Source of the DNA: an uncultured Opitutia bacterium
Lineage (GTDB): Bacteria; Verrucomicrobiota; Verrucomicrobiia; Opitutales; Opitutaceae
Direction: 5' to 3'
DNA length: 64,000 nucleotides
Assembly: GCA_903834135.1 (NCBI GenBank)
Contig: CAILHZ010000016.1
Coordinates: 62,001 to 126,000, forward strand
Both the position numbers and the translations under genes were made by a program. The notes under the pieces are model-generated. The model worked only from the letters and a program-made list of their open reading frames with translations. It searched no databases and was not told the DNA's origin. Below, piece after piece: positions 1-62,352 of the stretch (positions are counted from its first letter, which is position 1; the number at the start of each line of letters is the position of its first letter).

Positions 1-442
1 TCATGCCAAGCGGCGTAATAACGGAAGAAGCCCACCTATGAGCAATCCGGTCTAAAGTGGGCTTATCGCAATGATCGTAGTGATCATGGCTAAGTAATAC
101 CGCTGTGATTTTTGGTAGTGACTCCCATGCTATTGCGGGTGCCATGAATCGCTTTGGTCCTACCCAAGAAAATGGTCCTACACGCTCAGAATATACTGGA
201 TCTGTTAAAAAATTTCCCTGTGGCGTTTGGATAAGAAAACTGGAGTGCCCTATGTAGCTTACTTGAATATCATTTCCTACATTGTGTGGCGCAGGGACTA
301 TCTTTTGATGAGTCAGCTTTGGCCAAGGTTTAGGCTTACTGTTTAGTTTCCATCTTAACAGCTCTCTAATGCCATGATGTGACTCACCAAGCTTATTCGA
401 GAATTTTTTCCCATTGAAGTGATCAGAGATGGCGGGTGACAT
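1..442 (-). CDS. Metallo-beta-lactamase-fold hydrolase, 3' end cut by window edge
   Basis: The minus-strand frame is open from an ATG at 442 to the window edge, giving about 147 residues of the N-terminal part. It reads DPVYSERVGPFSWVGPKRF and then SHDHYDHCD, the HxHxDH metal-binding motif of the metallo-beta-lactamase fold. The spacing and the DPVxSxRxGPxxxxGPKRF lead-in match the NAPE-PLD/UlaG-like family, which hydrolyses phosphodiester or lactone substrates. There is no evident signal peptide, so it is probably cytoplasmic. The real substrate cannot be told from this part. It is divergent from rsmD. Confidence 0.8.
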   Translation of the reverse strand, partial: MSPAISDHFNGKKFSNKLGESHHGIRELLRWKLNSKPKPWPKLTHQKIVPAPHNVGNDIQVSYIGHSSFLIQTPQGNFLTDPVYSERVGPFSWVGPKRFMAPAIAWESLPKITAVLLSHDHYDHCDKPTLDRIAHRWASSVITPLGM

Positions 443-26502: not shown

Positions 26503-26524
26503 AGGCTATTCTAAGTTATAGCCT
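26503..26524 (-). terminator. Hairpin at the 3' end of the sigma-like gene
   Basis: AGGCTAT (26503-26509) pairs with ATAGCCT (26518-26524) around an 8-nt loop. The stem touches the stop codon of the sigma-like gene. A U-tract is absent, so it is a weak terminator or a stabilising 3' hairpin. Confidence 0.4.
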
Positions 26525-27546
26525 TAGGCTTGTGCACTTTCGCACAAAGTATTGAGATAATCTAATATAGCCTCAGGCAAAGAACCAATATCTCGCATAC
26601 AGGCGAGCATTACGCGTGTTTCTGGTTTAATCATAGTGCGGTAGTAATGTCTTAAAGTCTCAATTACTTCATTATCAGCTAATGATGAATCAGGCTCTGG
26701 TGCAGGATCACTCAGTGCATAATCAAACGAATGCGCCGCCTCATCATTAGAGTAATTAGTATTAATCGATACAGCGATAGGGACTTGTTGACTGTTGATC
26801 ACGGTATCAACTCCCACCCGTAACTCTTTAGCCAGATCCTCAACACTAAGAGGCGGAAGTCCATTTGCCTCACGTTCAGCCTGGATACGCTCAGTTTTGG
26901 ATTTAATCCTCTGTTGATTGATTGGAAAGGTTACAACCGACTGAAGCTTTTGCCTACCACGAGTAATTTGAAACTTAATCCAATAATTAGCAAAATAACC
27001 AAATCTTACAGCTTTTACGGTAGGTACATAGCGATCCACAGCATCGAGTAGACCTTTTCTTGCGTCACTGCAGCGCTCATCATAGGTGCCACCGCTTTCG
27101 TGTTTGGCGACACTAAATGCCAGACCCAAATTAGCATCTAAAAGACTATTACGATAATCGATGATGCGTGTTGTACATTCCTCTAGTCTCTTGGTCTTTG
27201 TGGTACTTTTAGCACATGCAATACTTGCAATTTCAATATAGCTACCAACAGGAATAGATTTCAAAAGCCATGTAGCTAGAATCTTCTTAAATGACTTACC
27301 CATCTTAGATGCATTTAAAAGCTGGGATAATTTCCTTCTGCGCGAGTAATTCAAGCGAGATACCCTCCAGTTAAGCGACTTATCACCCTTTTGTATACCC
27401 TTTACACCCATTCTGGGCATAGCCTCTAGCCACTGCTTAATTGCATGGGGCTGATCCGATAGCAGATCAGTCATAGAACACTGAAGTATGAAGAACTCAT
27501 GAAACCGTCTTGCATTTTGAGTATATAACGGAGGATTTTTCATCAC
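26524..27546 (-). CDS. Sigma-70-like protein lacking region 4.2
   Basis: The 340-residue protein has an unrecognised basic N-terminal part (1-125), then a sigma-70 region 2-like segment (131-206): RNSLLDANLGLAFSVAKH, ARKGLLDAVDRYVPT and RFGYFANYWIKFQITRGRQ. The last replaces the FSTYAxWWIRQAI stretch of ordinary sigma factors. Region 3-like sequence follows (RIKSKTERIQAEREANGLPPLSVEDLAKELRV). The chain ends about 20 residues after ETRVMLACMRD, where region 4.1 would lead into the -35-binding HTH, and no other frame continues it. Start: GTG 27546 or ATG 27543 with no Shine-Dalgarno; M25 is an alternative. It is divergent from a surface-protein operon. Confidence 0.7.
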   Translation of the reverse strand: MMKNPPLYTQNARRFHEFFILQCSMTDLLSDQPHAIKQWLEAMPRMGVKGIQKGDKSLNWRVSRLNYSRRRKLSQLLNASKMGKSFKKILATWLLKSIPVGSYIEIASIACAKSTTKTKRLEECTTRIIDYRNSLLDANLGLAFSVAKHESGGTYDERCSDARKGLLDAVDRYVPTVKAVRFGYFANYWIKFQITRGRQKLQSVVTFPINQQRIKSKTERIQAEREANGLPPLSVEDLAKELRVGVDTVINSQQVPIAVSINTNYSNDEAAHSFDYALSDPAPEPDSSLADNEVIETLRHYYRTMIKPETRVMLACMRDIGSLPEAILDYLNTLCESAQA

Positions 27547-27627
27547 GATAATATAGCACGTTCCAACTGTACCCCCTTTACGAACGCAAACTAAGTCATA
27601 AATGTTTATAAATATACGTCTATGTCG

Positions 27628-27645
27628 TGTGTTTTAAAATACACA
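27628..27645. promoter_or_regulatory. Inverted repeat between sigma-like gene and surface operon
   Basis: TGTGT-N8-ACACA with an AT-only spacer lies in the 110-bp divergent intergenic region, 12 bp upstream of the ATG at 27657. The location suits an operator for either gene. Confidence 0.3.
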
Positions 27646-27656
27646 TACAGTAATCA

Positions 27657-29291
27657 ATGCGAGGTAGTCTAAGCACTTGCTTTAATAGGTGTGTGAATAC
27701 ATCTCAAATCAAGGTGCAACGCCTAGCTTTACTCACTCTAGCGCTACTATCACCTCAGGTACGTGCTAATATCAGTGCGCCTGCAAATGAATCAAACAAG
27801 CAAGCTAGTGTTGCGCTATGGTCAAATGCAAATCCTACAGCCCTAGAGCAAGATGCTCTCGAGCACATCAATCGTCTACGTCACAATCCTGTTACTGAAT
27901 TAACACGGATTTTTGCCCGTTATTCTTTAGATCCCAAAATTACTGCGCTACTTAAGCCCTATCAACAGCGTGGCTTAAGTGGCCAACTCGAATCACTCGA
28001 TATCACAGCAGCCAGACTCCTTGCCACAATTTCAGCGGAATATGATTCGCGTAAAAAAGTACTCTTAATGAGTGCAGCGCCACTATGCTTATACCCTCTT
28101 TTCAAGCAGCGTGCTACAAATCTAAGAGAGGTGTTTTACTCCTACGAGGTAGCTAGTAAAGTAGCGAATTCGAGCGCTATATTTAATCCTATCTATCCAG
28201 GTACTCAACAACCTCCCACCTATTTATTTAGCCCTATCATTCTCTTTAGTAATACCTATAGCGATATGCCACTGTCATCATGGAGTGGTCCTAACGCTAC
28301 TAACGGCATAGTGACTTTCGGACCGTATGGTGGTAATGAAACCATGGTTACATGGACTGATTTATCAACAGAAGGAGGCATTGATCTAGACGCTTGGTGT
28401 GCTTTTTTATTTTTAAGCCAAGATTATCCAGCATTATTTGCACAGGGACCATACACCCCCAGTTTAGCACTAGGAAATGGACGCTTAGCGGGAGTTGATA
28501 TTTCGAATCGAACAGGAAGTCCTGGTAATGGGGATTTAATTCTCACTATAGATATCGGAGATCCCCAGGCTTTTACCTCGGGTAGTGATTTACCATACGG
28601 CCCAGTAGATACCGTTTTTATTACAGGAGTTGTCTATAATGACTTAAATGTTAACGGGGTATATGACTCAGGTGAGGGCGTCGCTAATGTTAATGTTTCA
28701 ACTCCAACTAGTCCCTACCAGGCAGTCACTTCTATATCCGGCGGTTACTGTATTCCCGTAGCACGCAATACAGGGCAAGTGCTTATTACAATTCAAAGTG
28801 CGTATGGAAATCAGAGCCAAAGCGTAAGTGTGGGTGAGGATAATACAAAAGCAGATTTCTTAATTTATAATCCTTTAAATAATTCACCTCTCACAAATCT
28901 ATCTGCACGATCATTTGTAGGTGGCCCTAATAATCCATTGATAGCTGGGTTTGTTATAGCAGGTAACCAAAACAGTTCAGTCTTGATTAGAGGTGTTGGG
29001 CCAACACTTTCGCAATTTGGTGTTACCGATGCCTTACCAAGCCCCAAACTTATTATTTACAATTCCCAAGGTCAGACAATTGCTCAAAATTCGGGCTGGT
29101 TTACTAACTTAAACGCAAATCAGCTTTCTAGTGTTTTTGCAGAAGTAGGTGCATTCTCTTTACCCAATTCGAGTGCAGACTGTGCACTACTGCTTAACTT
29201 GATTCCAGGGTGTTATACAGCACAAGTGGTGAGCACGAATACATCTACAGGACAAGCAATGATTGAAATTTATCACGTGCCATCAACGTGA
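27657..29291 (+). CDS. Secreted CAP-like/SdrD-like surface protein with Opitutae C-terminal module
   Basis: This 544-residue protein shows three parts. After a signal peptide (QRLALLTLALLSPQVRA), residues about 55-310 start like a CAP/SCP domain (LEQDALEHINRLRHNPVTEL). A SdrD-type B repeat follows (about 325-400, TGVVYNDLNVNGVYDSGEGVANVNV). Residues 410-544 form a module seen repeatedly in Opitutae surface proteins: LSARSFVGG, LIAGFVIAG, SSVLIRGVGPTLSQFGV. ATG 27657 or GTG 27696 could be the start. It overlaps the next gene by 4 bp (GTGA) and should be co-translated with it. The function is probably adhesion or an extracellular enzyme, unproven. Confidence 0.72.
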   Translation: MRGSLSTCFNRCVNTSQIKVQRLALLTLALLSPQVRANISAPANESNKQASVALWSNANPTALEQDALEHINRLRHNPVTELTRIFARYSLDPKITALLKPYQQRGLSGQLESLDITAARLLATISAEYDSRKKVLLMSAAPLCLYPLFKQRATNLREVFYSYEVASKVANSSAIFNPIYPGTQQPPTYLFSPIILFSNTYSDMPLSSWSGPNATNGIVTFGPYGGNETMVTWTDLSTEGGIDLDAWCAFLFLSQDYPALFAQGPYTPSLALGNGRLAGVDISNRTGSPGNGDLILTIDIGDPQAFTSGSDLPYGPVDTVFITGVVYNDLNVNGVYDSGEGVANVNVSTPTSPYQAVTSISGGYCIPVARNTGQVLITIQSAYGNQSQSVSVGEDNTKADFLIYNPLNNSPLTNLSARSFVGGPNNPLIAGFVIAGNQNSSVLIRGVGPTLSQFGVTDALPSPKLIIYNSQGQTIAQNSGWFTNLNANQLSSVFAEVGAFSLPNSSADCALLLNLIPGCYTAQVVSTNTSTGQAMIEIYHVPST

Positions 29292-31261
29292 ATAAAAATT
29301 TCGAGCACCTGCTCAAGCTTTTGAGCCAATGCATTTATTTTAGTTTGATTAGTTTAACATGTCAGGCTCAGGATTTTATGCCGAGCTTAAGCAATGCTCC
29401 TGACACAGGTAAGCCCTATGCAATTTTACCAGCATCAGCCATAAGTGAGCAGTTCTACGGCATTAGCCATGCTGAAAGTTCACTCAGCCTTACTCCTGTA
29501 TCTTTAAATTCAGGGGCTGCTGACATCATTTTAAGCGTGAATATCAATCCTTGGATTTCACGAAGTTCAGAAGGCATATTCTTTGCGGAATATTGGGTCG
29601 AAAAAATTGATCCCTCTACAAATGCAGTATCTGTTGCAAGCTATAGCGGTGTTATCGCAATCAATGTAAATAGTGGCACTTCAGCAAGCGCTTCCTGGAA
29701 TTGGAGTACTGAGCTAAACGCCGTGCAGTACGGCACCACATTCCGAGTCTTCGGATATTGCTATATGTACAACCAAGGAGGCGGGCAGCAGGGAGAATTT
29801 GCACTGTTTTCTTCATTTGGATCAGCACGCGTTTCCTTTCCAAAGCAAATGCCGATGCCTACATCTTCCTCAGCAACAATTGTTTTTGGTCAGACATTCA
29901 CACCCAGTATTAATTCAGACATGGGTCCATATGGTCTAGTTTACCAAATTACAGGGCAAACTCCGTTACTAGACGCAAATAATGCGTGGAATCCTCCCAC
30001 CGCTGGCACCTACACTTTTACAGTAGGTCAATTAAGTGACGCTTCATATTACGGAAATACAAACGATCCTATCTGGGGTAATCTTGAACTAAATTCTACC
30101 CCTTACACTCTCAAAGTCACATCACTTACTACACCCAGTATAAATTCATTTAACGATTCTATAATAGTGGGCACCCCTTGGAGCCCTACCTATACAACTA
30201 CAAGTCCTGATGCTGGACCAGCTGTATTTTGTGTCGTTGGAGAAACAAACTTTGGAACTTCCGGAATACCCACTCAATCATGGACACCCAAAACAGCCGG
30301 CAATTACACCTTCTATGTAGGCCAACAAATTCTTAATTCTAATTATCAGTCTAGTATTAGTGACCCGATACTTGGCGCTATGGTATTAAATTTTACTCCA
30401 TACACAGTTACCGTATTACGAAATTCACAATCAGTCTTATCCACAAATGCTACAGTTACGTTAGGTAATGCCTTCACTCCAACTTTTATCACTAATTCTG
30501 CTTCTGGTTCAGATTTATTTCAGTTTTGTATCATTAATCATACAAATTACGACGGTGGTGGATCACAAAATCAAGGCACATTAGATCCCAGCCAAAACAA
30601 CACATGGGTCCCTAGCTGGACTGCTTCTGAGCCAGGAGTATATTATTTTACAGTAGCAGAAAACGGAAACGATCAGTTTAGCCCATATAATCCGGGTACT
30701 GAATATACCTTAACTGTAAATGCACCGCCAAAACCTGCGCCAGTAGAACCGGTTGTAATACCACAAATACCAGTATCACCGGTTGTAATCACGCCAGTAA
30801 TATCCCAACCCATCACACCTGTGATATTCACACCAGAACCTGTGCCAGCAGTAACAGTAACACAAGTAATTGCACCGCCAGTAATATCCCAACCCACCAC
30901 ACCTGTTACAATTACTCCAACACCTACAACAGTCATTACTCAGGAGATCCCATTTGAACCAGAAGTTGTCACTGCTGTTACTTACACTACACCAGTGACT
31001 CCAACGACACCTATTGCACTAGTCAGTACGCCACCTGTTGTTTTGAAATACGATATTACACGCATTCGCTTCAATTTACCCGGGCATGACGCCTTTATTA
31101 CTGCACCTGGAAAAATGGGCCACATCTCATATATTTGGACTGACCCAAGCCTTCTGAGTATCAAACCTTGGCAAGTTTTCTCAAATCCAACCCAACTTGA
31201 ATGGACCATAAGCAACTTTAAGCTACCTGAAGCTCCTTTGGCTAAAATTTCAAACCACTAA
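29288..31261 (+). CDS. Large secreted protein: three Ig-like repeats, Pro/Val linker, C-terminal module
   Basis: This 657-residue protein is not a recognised family. A signal peptide (LLSQCIYFSLISLTCQAQ) is followed by a unique N-terminal domain (about 30-190) and three related domains of about 95-100 residues, each with TFTP/AFTP-type start, W-x-P-x-TAGxYTFxVG core and YTLxV end (about 195-280, 285-375 and 380-475). A Pro/Val/Thr-rich linker (about 480-590) and a 60-residue C-terminal part follow. The GTG start overlaps the preceding stop by 4 bp. It is likely to extend from the cell surface. Confidence 0.7.
   Translation: MNKNFEHLLKLLSQCIYFSLISLTCQAQDFMPSLSNAPDTGKPYAILPASAISEQFYGISHAESSLSLTPVSLNSGAADIILSVNINPWISRSSEGIFFAEYWVEKIDPSTNAVSVASYSGVIAINVNSGTSASASWNWSTELNAVQYGTTFRVFGYCYMYNQGGGQQGEFALFSSFGSARVSFPKQMPMPTSSSATIVFGQTFTPSINSDMGPYGLVYQITGQTPLLDANNAWNPPTAGTYTFTVGQLSDASYYGNTNDPIWGNLELNSTPYTLKVTSLTTPSINSFNDSIIVGTPWSPTYTTTSPDAGPAVFCVVGETNFGTSGIPTQSWTPKTAGNYTFYVGQQILNSNYQSSISDPILGAMVLNFTPYTVTVLRNSQSVLSTNATVTLGNAFTPTFITNSASGSDLFQFCIINHTNYDGGGSQNQGTLDPSQNNTWVPSWTASEPGVYYFTVAENGNDQFSPYNPGTEYTLTVNAPPKPAPVEPVVIPQIPVSPVVITPVISQPITPVIFTPEPVPAVTVTQVIAPPVISQPTTPVTITPTPTTVITQEIPFEPEVVTAVTYTTPVTPTTPIALVSTPPVVLKYDITRIRFNLPGHDAFITAPGKMGHISYIWTDPSLLSIKPWQVFSNPTQLEWTISNFKLPEAPLAKISNH
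30793..30906 (+). repeat. 30-bp direct repeat in the Pro/Val linker
   Basis: Two 30-bp copies, 30793-30822 and 30877-30906, are 29/30 identical and 84 bp apart (28 codons). Each encodes PVISQP followed by I/T-TPV. They suggest recent tandem expansion of the linker. Confidence 0.8.
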
Positions 31262-31311: not shown

Positions 31312-32019
31312 ATGAGTGCTCTTCCTATTCTTAGCGTTAGCGAACTCACCAAAACCTATCCTACTACATCGGGTCCCTTAACAGTGCTTCACACGGTAAG
31401 TTTCGACCTTGAAGCAGGTACTAGCCTAGCGATCGTTGGCCCCAGCGGAAGCGGCAAAACAACACTCCTAGGGCTATGTGCTGGCTTAGATTATCCTTCG
31501 AGTGGCTCAGTCTGTCTCGCTGGCTCAAAATTAGAACAATTAGATGAAGACGGAAGAGCGCGTGTAAGAAATCTGAACGTAGGCTTTGTTTTTCAGAATT
31601 TTCAACTCATCCCAACTCTGAGTGCACGAGAAAATATACTTATTCCCTTAGAATTAAGAGAAGAATCAAATGAAGTTAGAGCGGGCTACGAAGTACTCGC
31701 AGATGAACTCCTTGAGCGCGTGGGCTTGAGTGCACGCGCAAACCACTACCCTATTCAACTTTCGGGAGGCGAACAACAGCGTGTCGCACTGGCACGTGCT
31801 TTTATCAATAATCCTAAAATATTATTCTGCGACGAACCTACTGGGAATTTAGATTCTGAGAATGCAACCGCTATGATCGATTTGATCTTTGGCCTTAATT
31901 TAGAAAAGCAAACCACTTTAGTTCTAGTGACACATGACAGCGATCTGGCAAAAAGGTGTAAGCGTATTTTGCGTTTTCGCAGTGGAAAAATAATTAGCGA
32001 TTCAAATCACTTAGCCTAG
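31312..32019 (+). CDS. LolD/YbbA-type ABC transporter ATP-binding protein
   Basis: The 235-residue ATPase has Walker A GPSGSGKTTLL (about 44-54), the Q-loop VFQNFQLIP, signature LSGGEQQRVALARAF, Walker B ILFCDEPTGNLD and the H-loop VLVTHD. NFQLIPTLSARENI and EPTGNLD are typical of the MacB/LolD/YbbA group, whose partner is an FtsX-like permease. No such permease is adjacent. An AAGGTG lies 5 bp before the ATG, one of the few clear Shine-Dalgarno sites in the window. Confidence 0.92.
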   Translation: MSALPILSVSELTKTYPTTSGPLTVLHTVSFDLEAGTSLAIVGPSGSGKTTLLGLCAGLDYPSSGSVCLAGSKLEQLDEDGRARVRNLNVGFVFQNFQLIPTLSARENILIPLELREESNEVRAGYEVLADELLERVGLSARANHYPIQLSGGEQQRVALARAFINNPKILFCDEPTGNLDSENATAMIDLIFGLNLEKQTTLVLVTHDSDLAKRCKRILRFRSGKIISDSNHLA

Positions 32020-61413: not shown

Positions 61414-62352
61414 TTACCCAATATCGTTAAAATTAAACATTTTCTTTGCGTTCAAATAGAGAATCTTACGAAGCACTGGTTCTGGAATCCCCAAAGAACG
61501 CCACATAGCAAACTTTTCTACACTCGAACACGTAAGTCCGACACCCGTTCTGCATGAACAGTCTGAACCAAACAGTAGCTTGTCTTGATGACGCTCAACA
61601 AAGGATTTACCAAAATCAGGCTGCCTTAAAAGAGCATTAGTTCCTGAACCAGCAGATACATCACCATAAAAATTAGGGTAATCTGTTAACCAACGATCTG
61701 TTAATCCACCAGGTGTGATATGTGTTTTAGGATAAAGACCGTCCTTAGCAGAAAAATTTTTATCTACATAGCACCAGAAAGTCATGGCGTGGCCGATAAA
61801 TTTAACAGTTGGGAACCTTTCTAGCACTCGGTGAAATCGTTCGAATCCAACATTGTACATTCCTTCTTGGAAATGCATGAGTACAGGAACACCACGATCA
61901 CGTGCTAATTCAGCAACTTTTATAATATAATCTGAATCACACTCTACCTTATCCTTTAATTCACCAATACCAATAGCCCCCTTATCTAAGTAACGTTCAA
62001 TTTCTTTTACTGCGCCTGGTGCATTTACATCGTCATTAGAAAAATATTCAAATTCTCCACCAGGGTGCTTTTGAACAAATTCATAAGTATGCCCAACAGG
62101 CATAACACCCGCTGCTAGTTGATTGGAACGACCTGCAGGTAATAAAATTGTTTTTGTAATTTTATTAATACGCTGATGATGAAATAACTGCTCATCTGTG
62201 CGACCAGAGAAAGGTGTATGTTGATGAATATCAATAATAGGGATAGCGCCAGCTTGTGTCGCCCCATGCACTAAGCACTGTGTGCCAATAAGCCCAAGAG
62301 CAGTCGTTGCTAGAAAGTCACGACGCGTATATTTATTTGGTGATAAATTCAT
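61414..62352 (-). CDS. Tat-exported amidohydrolase (amidohydro-rel TIM barrel)
   Basis: The 312-residue protein has a twin-arginine signal (TRRDFLATTALGLIGTQCLVHGA). The amidohydrolase-2 fold shows DIHQHT (HxH), a Glu in MHFQEGMYN, GHAMTFW (His) and LLFGSDCS (Asp). Its relatives are metal-dependent lactonases, decarboxylases or deacylases. Tat export suggests folding or metal loading in the cytoplasm before transport. It is 60 bp from the isomerase gene on the same strand. Confidence 0.85.
   Translation of the reverse strand: MNLSPNKYTRRDFLATTALGLIGTQCLVHGATQAGAIPIIDIHQHTPFSGRTDEQLFHHQRINKITKTILLPAGRSNQLAAGVMPVGHTYEFVQKHPGGEFEYFSNDDVNAPGAVKEIERYLDKGAIGIGELKDKVECDSDYIIKVAELARDRGVPVLMHFQEGMYNVGFERFHRVLERFPTVKFIGHAMTFWCYVDKNFSAKDGLYPKTHITPGGLTDRWLTDYPNFYGDVSAGSGTNALLRQPDFGKSFVERHQDKLLFGSDCSCRTGVGLTCSSVEKFAMWRSLGIPEPVLRKILYLNAKKMFNFNDIG

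Follow-up and report, generated by a model that had tools for sequence, protein, structure and literature searches.

What can a sigma factor still do once the part that reads the -35 element is gone? The question is raised by a gene, here called sigma A, in a 64,000-nucleotide stretch of DNA from an uncultured Opitutia bacterium (the window; positions 62,001 to 126,000 of contig C16 in genome G000, a draft of 2.65 Mb in 26 contigs). Sigma A encodes a sigma-70-like protein and stands back to back with genes for two secreted proteins, SP1 and SP2. An initial annotation had suggested that the protein could be a dedicated regulator that relies on -10 recognition alone and possibly controls the two genes opposite. 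The best reading, in our view, is of a wider target set, and on balance we lean toward sigma A being a sigma-70-derived, -10-only regulator of a dispersed conjugation and type IV pilus regulon. This reading joins a protein that has no -35 domain, promoters that have no -35 element, and a shared distribution. Each of the three is present at the level of sequence, as the loss of region 4.2, a common motif with no -35 signal, and co-occurrence with VirB4/TraG. Coordinates are collected in Table 1.

The sigma-like open reading frame (ORF) of the initial annotation, with regions 2 and 3 and a chain ending in SAQA, was borne out by three comparisons. RpoD-type NCBIfam models matched residues 115-313 (best E 4.4e-10, far under the curated cut-offs), the PDB sequences gave SigA/HrdB (E 2.6e-10), and hhalign placed window residues 131-311 of the family profile on E. 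coli RpoD 376-558 with 96.7% probability. The homologous regions 2 and 3 put the protein in the sigma-70 family. A Pfam scan of the protein gave zero matches, and sigma A is not among the nine Sigma70_r2 matches of its own genome. The AlphaFold model has a mean predicted local distance difference test (pLDDT) score of 51 and is usable only in regions 2-3 (residues ~130-250), with uninformative N- and C-terminal parts; Foldseek matches to this low-confidence model were RNA-polymerase sigma chains (best E 1.9e-7). No match to the RpoD N-terminus was found by hhalign for the first 125 residues. A division of this part into RpoD region 1.2 and the non-conserved region had been suggested by eye and was unsupported by hhalign. 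The Pfam and NCBIfam scans gave no sign of a response-regulator receiver, with no search aimed at receivers. Literature searches, judged from the search listings alone, turned up no account of the sigma A family.

The helix-turn-helix of region 4.2 is the -35-reading part of sigma-70 factors. It is absent, as the initial annotation had it, from the window protein and equally from the other six full-length relatives. These were found among 252 draft genomes of the same family, of which seven carry full-length sigma A: G000, G009, G011, and G012 in genus g1, and G112, G119, and G125 in genus g7. An ordinary RpoS-like match in G101 (8.8e-16) and a fragment on contig C124 of G125 were not counted. 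Searching 57 relatives gave full-length homologues in three of the twelve other g1 genomes (36-40% identity, same end point), and an order-wide draw of 223 genomes gave a sigma A match in the own genome alone. Since no homologue with a full region 4 occurs at this site among the 252 genomes, the early end is a family trait, and recent truncation is ruled out. The initial annotation had also placed region 4.1 near the end. That assignment proved positional only: the C-terminal ~60 residues are not above chance against sigma region 4 (hhalign E 0.21; shuffle z -0.5 to 1.9), so the label should be dropped. A region 4.1 or collapsed region 4.2 in the tail had looked plausible by eye and failed both the shuffles and hhalign. 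A phage origin was also considered and rejected, as viral scans yielded ordinary sigma factors or nothing. A scan of genome contigs produced a single match, an ordinary sigma.

Sigma A might instead be the functionless remnant of a decaying RpoD paralogue. Its distribution is patchy, and the fragment in G125 is indeed a degenerate copy. However, the frame is open in all seven members, many positions are invariant across the two genera, and the ratio of nonsynonymous to synonymous substitution rates (dN/dS) is about 0.2 (0.18-0.22 for the whole gene and 0-0.10 for the core in three g7 comparisons). We regard this explanation as largely refuted and highly improbable. The broken copy (L051) lies beside the remnant of a 419-aa neighbour protein, which suggests that the two genes move and decay as a pair.

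We then aligned, residue by residue, E. coli RpoD, the relatives' own RpoD and RpoS-like factors, a second sigma-like protein of genus g7 (sigma B), four viral sigmas, and the seven sigma A members. In E. coli RpoD, residues F419, Y430, W433, and W434 form the pocket for the flipped -11A, as an excerpt of PMC7057261 describes. All seven sigma A proteins have aromatic residues there (Y, F, Y/F, and W, respectively) and also retain R441. Family-specific changes fall at 437 (Y/F), 444-445 (QK), 455 (N/H), and 458 (R), positions that contact the -12 base and the extended -10 element. The polymerase side is where the alignment weighs against a working sigma factor. Every other aligned sequence with letters there (ordinary, sigma B, and viral) has E407 and G408, and all seven sigma A proteins have lost them (D/A in the window protein); the acid at 403 is kept throughout, and 407 is acidic in one of the seven. 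Residues 406, 407, and 409 (E. coli numbering) are presumably the core-binding residues of region 2.2. With the pocket aromatics retained, the specificity positions changed, and 407/408 gone, the alignment describes a DNA face that is conserved with altered specificity and a classic core face that is damaged. The loss of E407 and G408 makes standard binding to core polymerase doubtful, and this is the weak point of the regulator that we favour.

The same damage, together with the missing region 4, would suit a sigma mimic or decoy that does not initiate transcription and instead attaches to motif DNA or to some other regulator, working as a repressor, anchor, or partner switch. PhyR offers a precedent: in the part of PMC8103513 that treats it, its sigma-like domain is non-initiating and degenerate in both promoter and core contacts. 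Sigma A, in contrast, retains its -10 pocket aromatics and is accompanied by a -10-like motif, and we consider mimicry unlikely. If sigma A does act as a -10-only regulator, it would have to reach the polymerase through altered or additional contacts, for example by its novel N-terminus, or through a partner.

The motif, TTGC-YAYNAT, was spotted in upstream sequences of the system's genes, just before their start codons. Its consensus, TTGC-TATNAT, resembles an extended -10 element and lies 4-9 nt before the start codon, from which we infer that the transcripts are probably nearly leaderless. A scan for [CT]TGC[CT]ANN[AG]T, followed after 4-9 nt by RTG and an ORF, gave three matches in 19 kb of G009 and three in 19.5 kb of G012, in both cases before a pilin-like gene, a gene labelled P210, and SP1. 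The G119 set (115 kb, including chromosomal flank) gave sixteen, none of them in the flank L135. Control DNA from the same genus (121 kb) gave zero matches, as did 15 kb of G066. Among the GC-rich carriers, C follows TG far more often than any other base does (15 vs 0, 0, and 4; 5 vs 0, 1, and 0; 4 vs 0, 0, and 0).

Within the own genome, SP1 and a VirB2-like gene ~322 kb apart share 19 identical nt, CACTTGCTTTAATAGGTGT, directly before the start, and two further transfer or pilus genes have TTGCTATTAT directly before the start codon. A tightened pattern, TTGCT[AT]T[AT]AT plus an ORF, gave two matches in 400 kb of other own-genome DNA, one of which, found blind, was the secretin of the pilus system. 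We also built a matrix from G119 sites only, using thirteen of its sixteen matches (we left out one before a 68-aa ORF and a pair that fall within coding repeats of SP2), and ran it over 503 kb of the own genome, which contain 5,253 candidate starts. The top three ranks went to a type IV secretion system (T4SS) gene labelled T4SS-a, a type IV pilus (T4P) gene labelled T4P-b, and the secretin; rank 6 was a type IV pilin, and the VirB2-like gene and SP1 (start 27693) came in at 14 and 15. In G009 and G012, nine of the top eleven among 2,115 starts were cassette, T4SS, or T4P genes. The best score among 2,907 control starts was 9.8, and the next was 7.3.

Over 42 sites, a set weakened by its inclusion of pattern-picked sites, no column upstream of -5 rose above 0.29 bits, and these columns had played no part in choosing the sites; the sites thus have no -35 element. 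TGn-TATAAT is a known promoter type, and the motif could be an ordinary extended -10 recognised by RpoD or by an RpoS-like factor, with sigma A a passenger of the same mobile system that has an unrelated job. The link between motif and protein is indirect, and a few unrelated genes of the carriers have the motif too. Against this stand the specific C after TG and the T before it in GC-rich genomes, the clean control DNA of the same genus, and G066, a genome where SP1-SP2 and pilus genes are present, sigma A is absent, and 15 kb show no motif. We think a passenger role quite unlikely.

Several individual sites deserve mention. In G009, the genes that follow motif sites include a VirB2-like gene, a secretin, a VirB7-like gene, RAYT-type transposases, and one that we take to be ComM; the RAYT-type genes (L246, L256, and L278) have TTGC-TATAAT before their start codons. 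In G009 (L040:7971-8010) and in G012 (L042:8451-8496), SP1 and the pilin-like gene divergent from it have motif copies that together make up a long palindrome, so a single inverted repeat would serve both directions. On contig C16 of the own genome, AACTTGCTATAAT stands 5 nt ahead of the start of a SixA-like phosphatase gene (L298:16772, minus strand), which is possibly a further regulon member unless the match is due to chance.

Sigma A and the transfer genes tend to be found in the same genomes. Near full-length VirB4/TraG of this system (53-100% identity over most of the length) occurs in six of the 252 genomes, and all six carry sigma A; a seventh, G136, lacks sigma A, and its match is distant (34%). 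Fisher's test gives 2e-11 on the assumption, not in fact valid, that the genomes are independent. In genus g1 the comparison is 4/4 vs 0/9 (p 0.0014), and counted by genus it is 2/2 vs 0/47 (p 8.5e-4). Full-length SP1, defined as a match over most of a 667-position model (two pieces joined in the own genome), is likewise found in six genomes, five of them with sigma A and the sixth being G066; some 139 others match only the common C-terminal domains. P210 is present in four genomes, all with sigma A.

The setting differs between the two genera. In G119, sigma A (C23:74642-75925) and the group of P210, SP1, and SP2 occupy opposite ends of a ~90-kb segment. The segment carries a tyrosine integrase (Phage_integrase, 6e-14), a topoisomerase (Topoisom_bac), a TraG/VirB4 ATPase (TraG P-loop, 1e-27), a T2SSE match, a type IV pilus set, and weak TrbI and relaxase matches below the Pfam cut-offs. 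The joint presence of an integrase, a relaxase, a T4SS ATPase, and transfer genes makes the segment an apparent integrative conjugative element. In the window genus the transfer and pilus parts are scattered on the chromosome, with SP1-SP2 opposite sigma A. The VirB4/TraG gene of the own genome is intact, and its VirB2-like gene is below the Pfam cut-off (E 0.0028). Three of its genomes (G000, G009, and G012) have sigma A and SP1-SP2 at one place, separated by P210 and the pilin-like gene in the latter two, and the neighbouring RlmM-SpoU-cyt b562 order is present in G003 and G006 without either. G066 has SP1-SP2 (L096, contig C15) directly before a secretin, a pilus ATPase, and a pilin, beside FtsK/TraD-like genes; this position suggests that SP1-SP2 are pilus-associated.

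The g7 element also raises the prospect of a two-subunit sigma factor, in which sigma A would supply sigma 2-3 and a second protein, in g7 sigma B, would supply sigma 4. Sigma B has a full Sigma70_r4 (E 2.8e-11) and an unusual region 2.3 (FHL in place of YWI), its gene carries the extended -10-like motif, and strong matches occur in only three of the 252 genomes, precisely the g7 carriers G112, G119, and G125. The four g1 carriers, however, have no close sigma B (the best match, 34% in G009, is an ordinary RpoS-like protein), which leaves it in three of seven carriers, and the shared motif offers a region 4 no -35 element to bind. Extra RpoS-like sigmas of G009, G011, and G012 were considered as partners and all were ordinary. 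A split factor is, to us, very unlikely.

Returning to the -10-only regulator, sigma A would have lost the -35-reading part and would act on extended -10 promoters, TTGC-TATNAT, before genes for the conjugation-type T4SS, its pilus, and SP1-SP2, presumably reading the motif directly. Beyond the polymerase contact, a number of results count against it. Another regulator of the same element may account for the motif. In the own genome, which is AT-rich, the C of TTGC shows no enrichment (3 vs 2, 2, and 5 with the pattern used for this count), and the start of sigma A itself ranks 143 of 5,253, which is not above background. Genome-wide counts with TTGCYAYNATYN{4,7}RTG are uneven: seven of twelve matches fall inside the element in G119 and likewise in G112, and G009 has fourteen vs 0-4 in nine g1 genomes without sigma A, while G011 has three, G012 four, and the own genome eleven vs seven in a reversed control, and counts of 8-12 are reached in some g7 genomes of 8-10 Mb that lack sigma A. 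These low and overlapping counts make the totals indecisive, and we dropped them as a discriminator of carriers. Finally, sigma A occurs without VirB4 in G125 and without full-length SP1 in G011 and G125, and the co-occurrence figures are uncorrected for phylogeny, with carriers that are few and related.

A fuller picture is more tentative, and we would not yet bet on it: a bacterial, non-phage sigma factor that uses the extended -10 only, has a rebuilt polymerase interface, and works as a dedicated switch for a regulon that stays intact from single element to scattered loci and is read from nearly leaderless messages. If the regulator is what we propose, it would be a chromosomal, non-phage sigma factor that functions with no -35 domain and is tied to a defined motif and gene set, and the minimal needs of a sigma factor would become directly testable. 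The motif could also locate genes of an otherwise scattered DNA-transfer and pilus system in draft genomes.

Table 1. Features at the sigma A locus and related loci. Plain coordinates refer to the window; others give contig or locus.
Feature	Position	Strand	Remarks
Sigma A, sigma-like gene, 339 aa, ends SAQA	26524..27546	-	ATG 27543; GTG 27546 alternative start
Sigma A layout	residues 1-125; ~126-200; ~205-255		novel N-terminus; sigma region 2; region 3; no region 4.2
Weak motif-like site AACGTGCTATATT	27550..27562	-	6 nt before sigma A ATG; not above background
Palindrome GTGTGTTTTAAAATACAC	27627..27644	.	not above chance
Extended -10-like motif CACTTGCTTTAAT	27674..27686	+	6 nt before GTG 27693
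SP1, secreted protein, 532 aa from revised GTG	27693..29291	+	ORF-list start 27657
SP2, second secreted protein	29288..31261	+	overlaps SP1 stop; ORF and orthologues
LolD-like ABC ATPase after SP2	31312..32019	+	same place in G012, 69% identity
Own-genome VirB2-like, T4SS-a, VirB4/TraG (862 codons), GspF-type, and pilin genes	C16:410.8-420.3 kb
Own-genome secretin, ATPase, and pilin	C16:219.6-223.6 kb
Sigma B, second sigma-like protein, 326 aa	L054:13205-14182 (G119)	same as sigma A	3.3 kb from sigma A

The genes opposite sigma A in the window are real ORFs with orthologues, as had been supposed, and SP2 orthologues follow SP1 in G009, G012, G066, G112, and G119. A signal peptide and the upstream motif make the revised GTG the better start of SP1, and the divergent gap, given as 110 bp in the initial annotation, becomes about 146 bp. 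The inverted repeat noted there was rejected as an operator, since 24% of shuffles reach an equal palindrome. The LolD-like ATPase gene is a conserved neighbour with no motif of its own seen. The idea that sigma A controls the opposite operon survives in part: the two co-occur in five genomes (of the seven with sigma A and six with SP1), and the SP1 motif is shared with distant transfer and pilus genes, while the motif at sigma A itself is weak. Dedicated -10-only regulation gained from the family-wide loss of region 4.2 and the -10-only motif and lost ground with E407/G408.

Among known systems, the nearest by descent are the RpoD and RpoS-like factors of the own genome, whose regions 2 and 3 align with sigma A. 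Sigma A differs from them in lacking region 4.2, in its unrelated first 125 residues, in the loss of E407/G408, and in the changed -12 and extended -10 positions. PhyR, in the section of PMC8103513 that covers it, shares a sigma-like fold with a degenerate core-contact region and is the closest mimic, though sigma A, unlike PhyR, keeps its -10 DNA-facing aromatics. The closest split model is SigO-RsoA of Bacillus subtilis, which the same section describes as carrying sigma 2 and sigma 4 on separate proteins. The g7 genomes resemble it in having a second sigma-like gene nearby; the window genus, in contrast, has no partner gene, and the motif linked to sigma A has no -35. By analogy, the closest working model is gp55 of phage T4, a late sigma factor whose acidic residues bind the beta' clamp helices while gp33 sits on the flap (excerpt of PMC7892883). 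Both are diverged sigma-70 proteins with a sigma-2-like part and a -10-like element, and in both the role of region 4 is elsewhere or absent. gp55, in that excerpt, keeps the beta' clamp acids, whereas sigma A keeps only the acid at 403 and, unlike gp55, has region 3 and a large novel N-terminus. Sigma A has in common with a gp55-like factor the sigma-2 homology without region 4 and probable targets without a -35 element.

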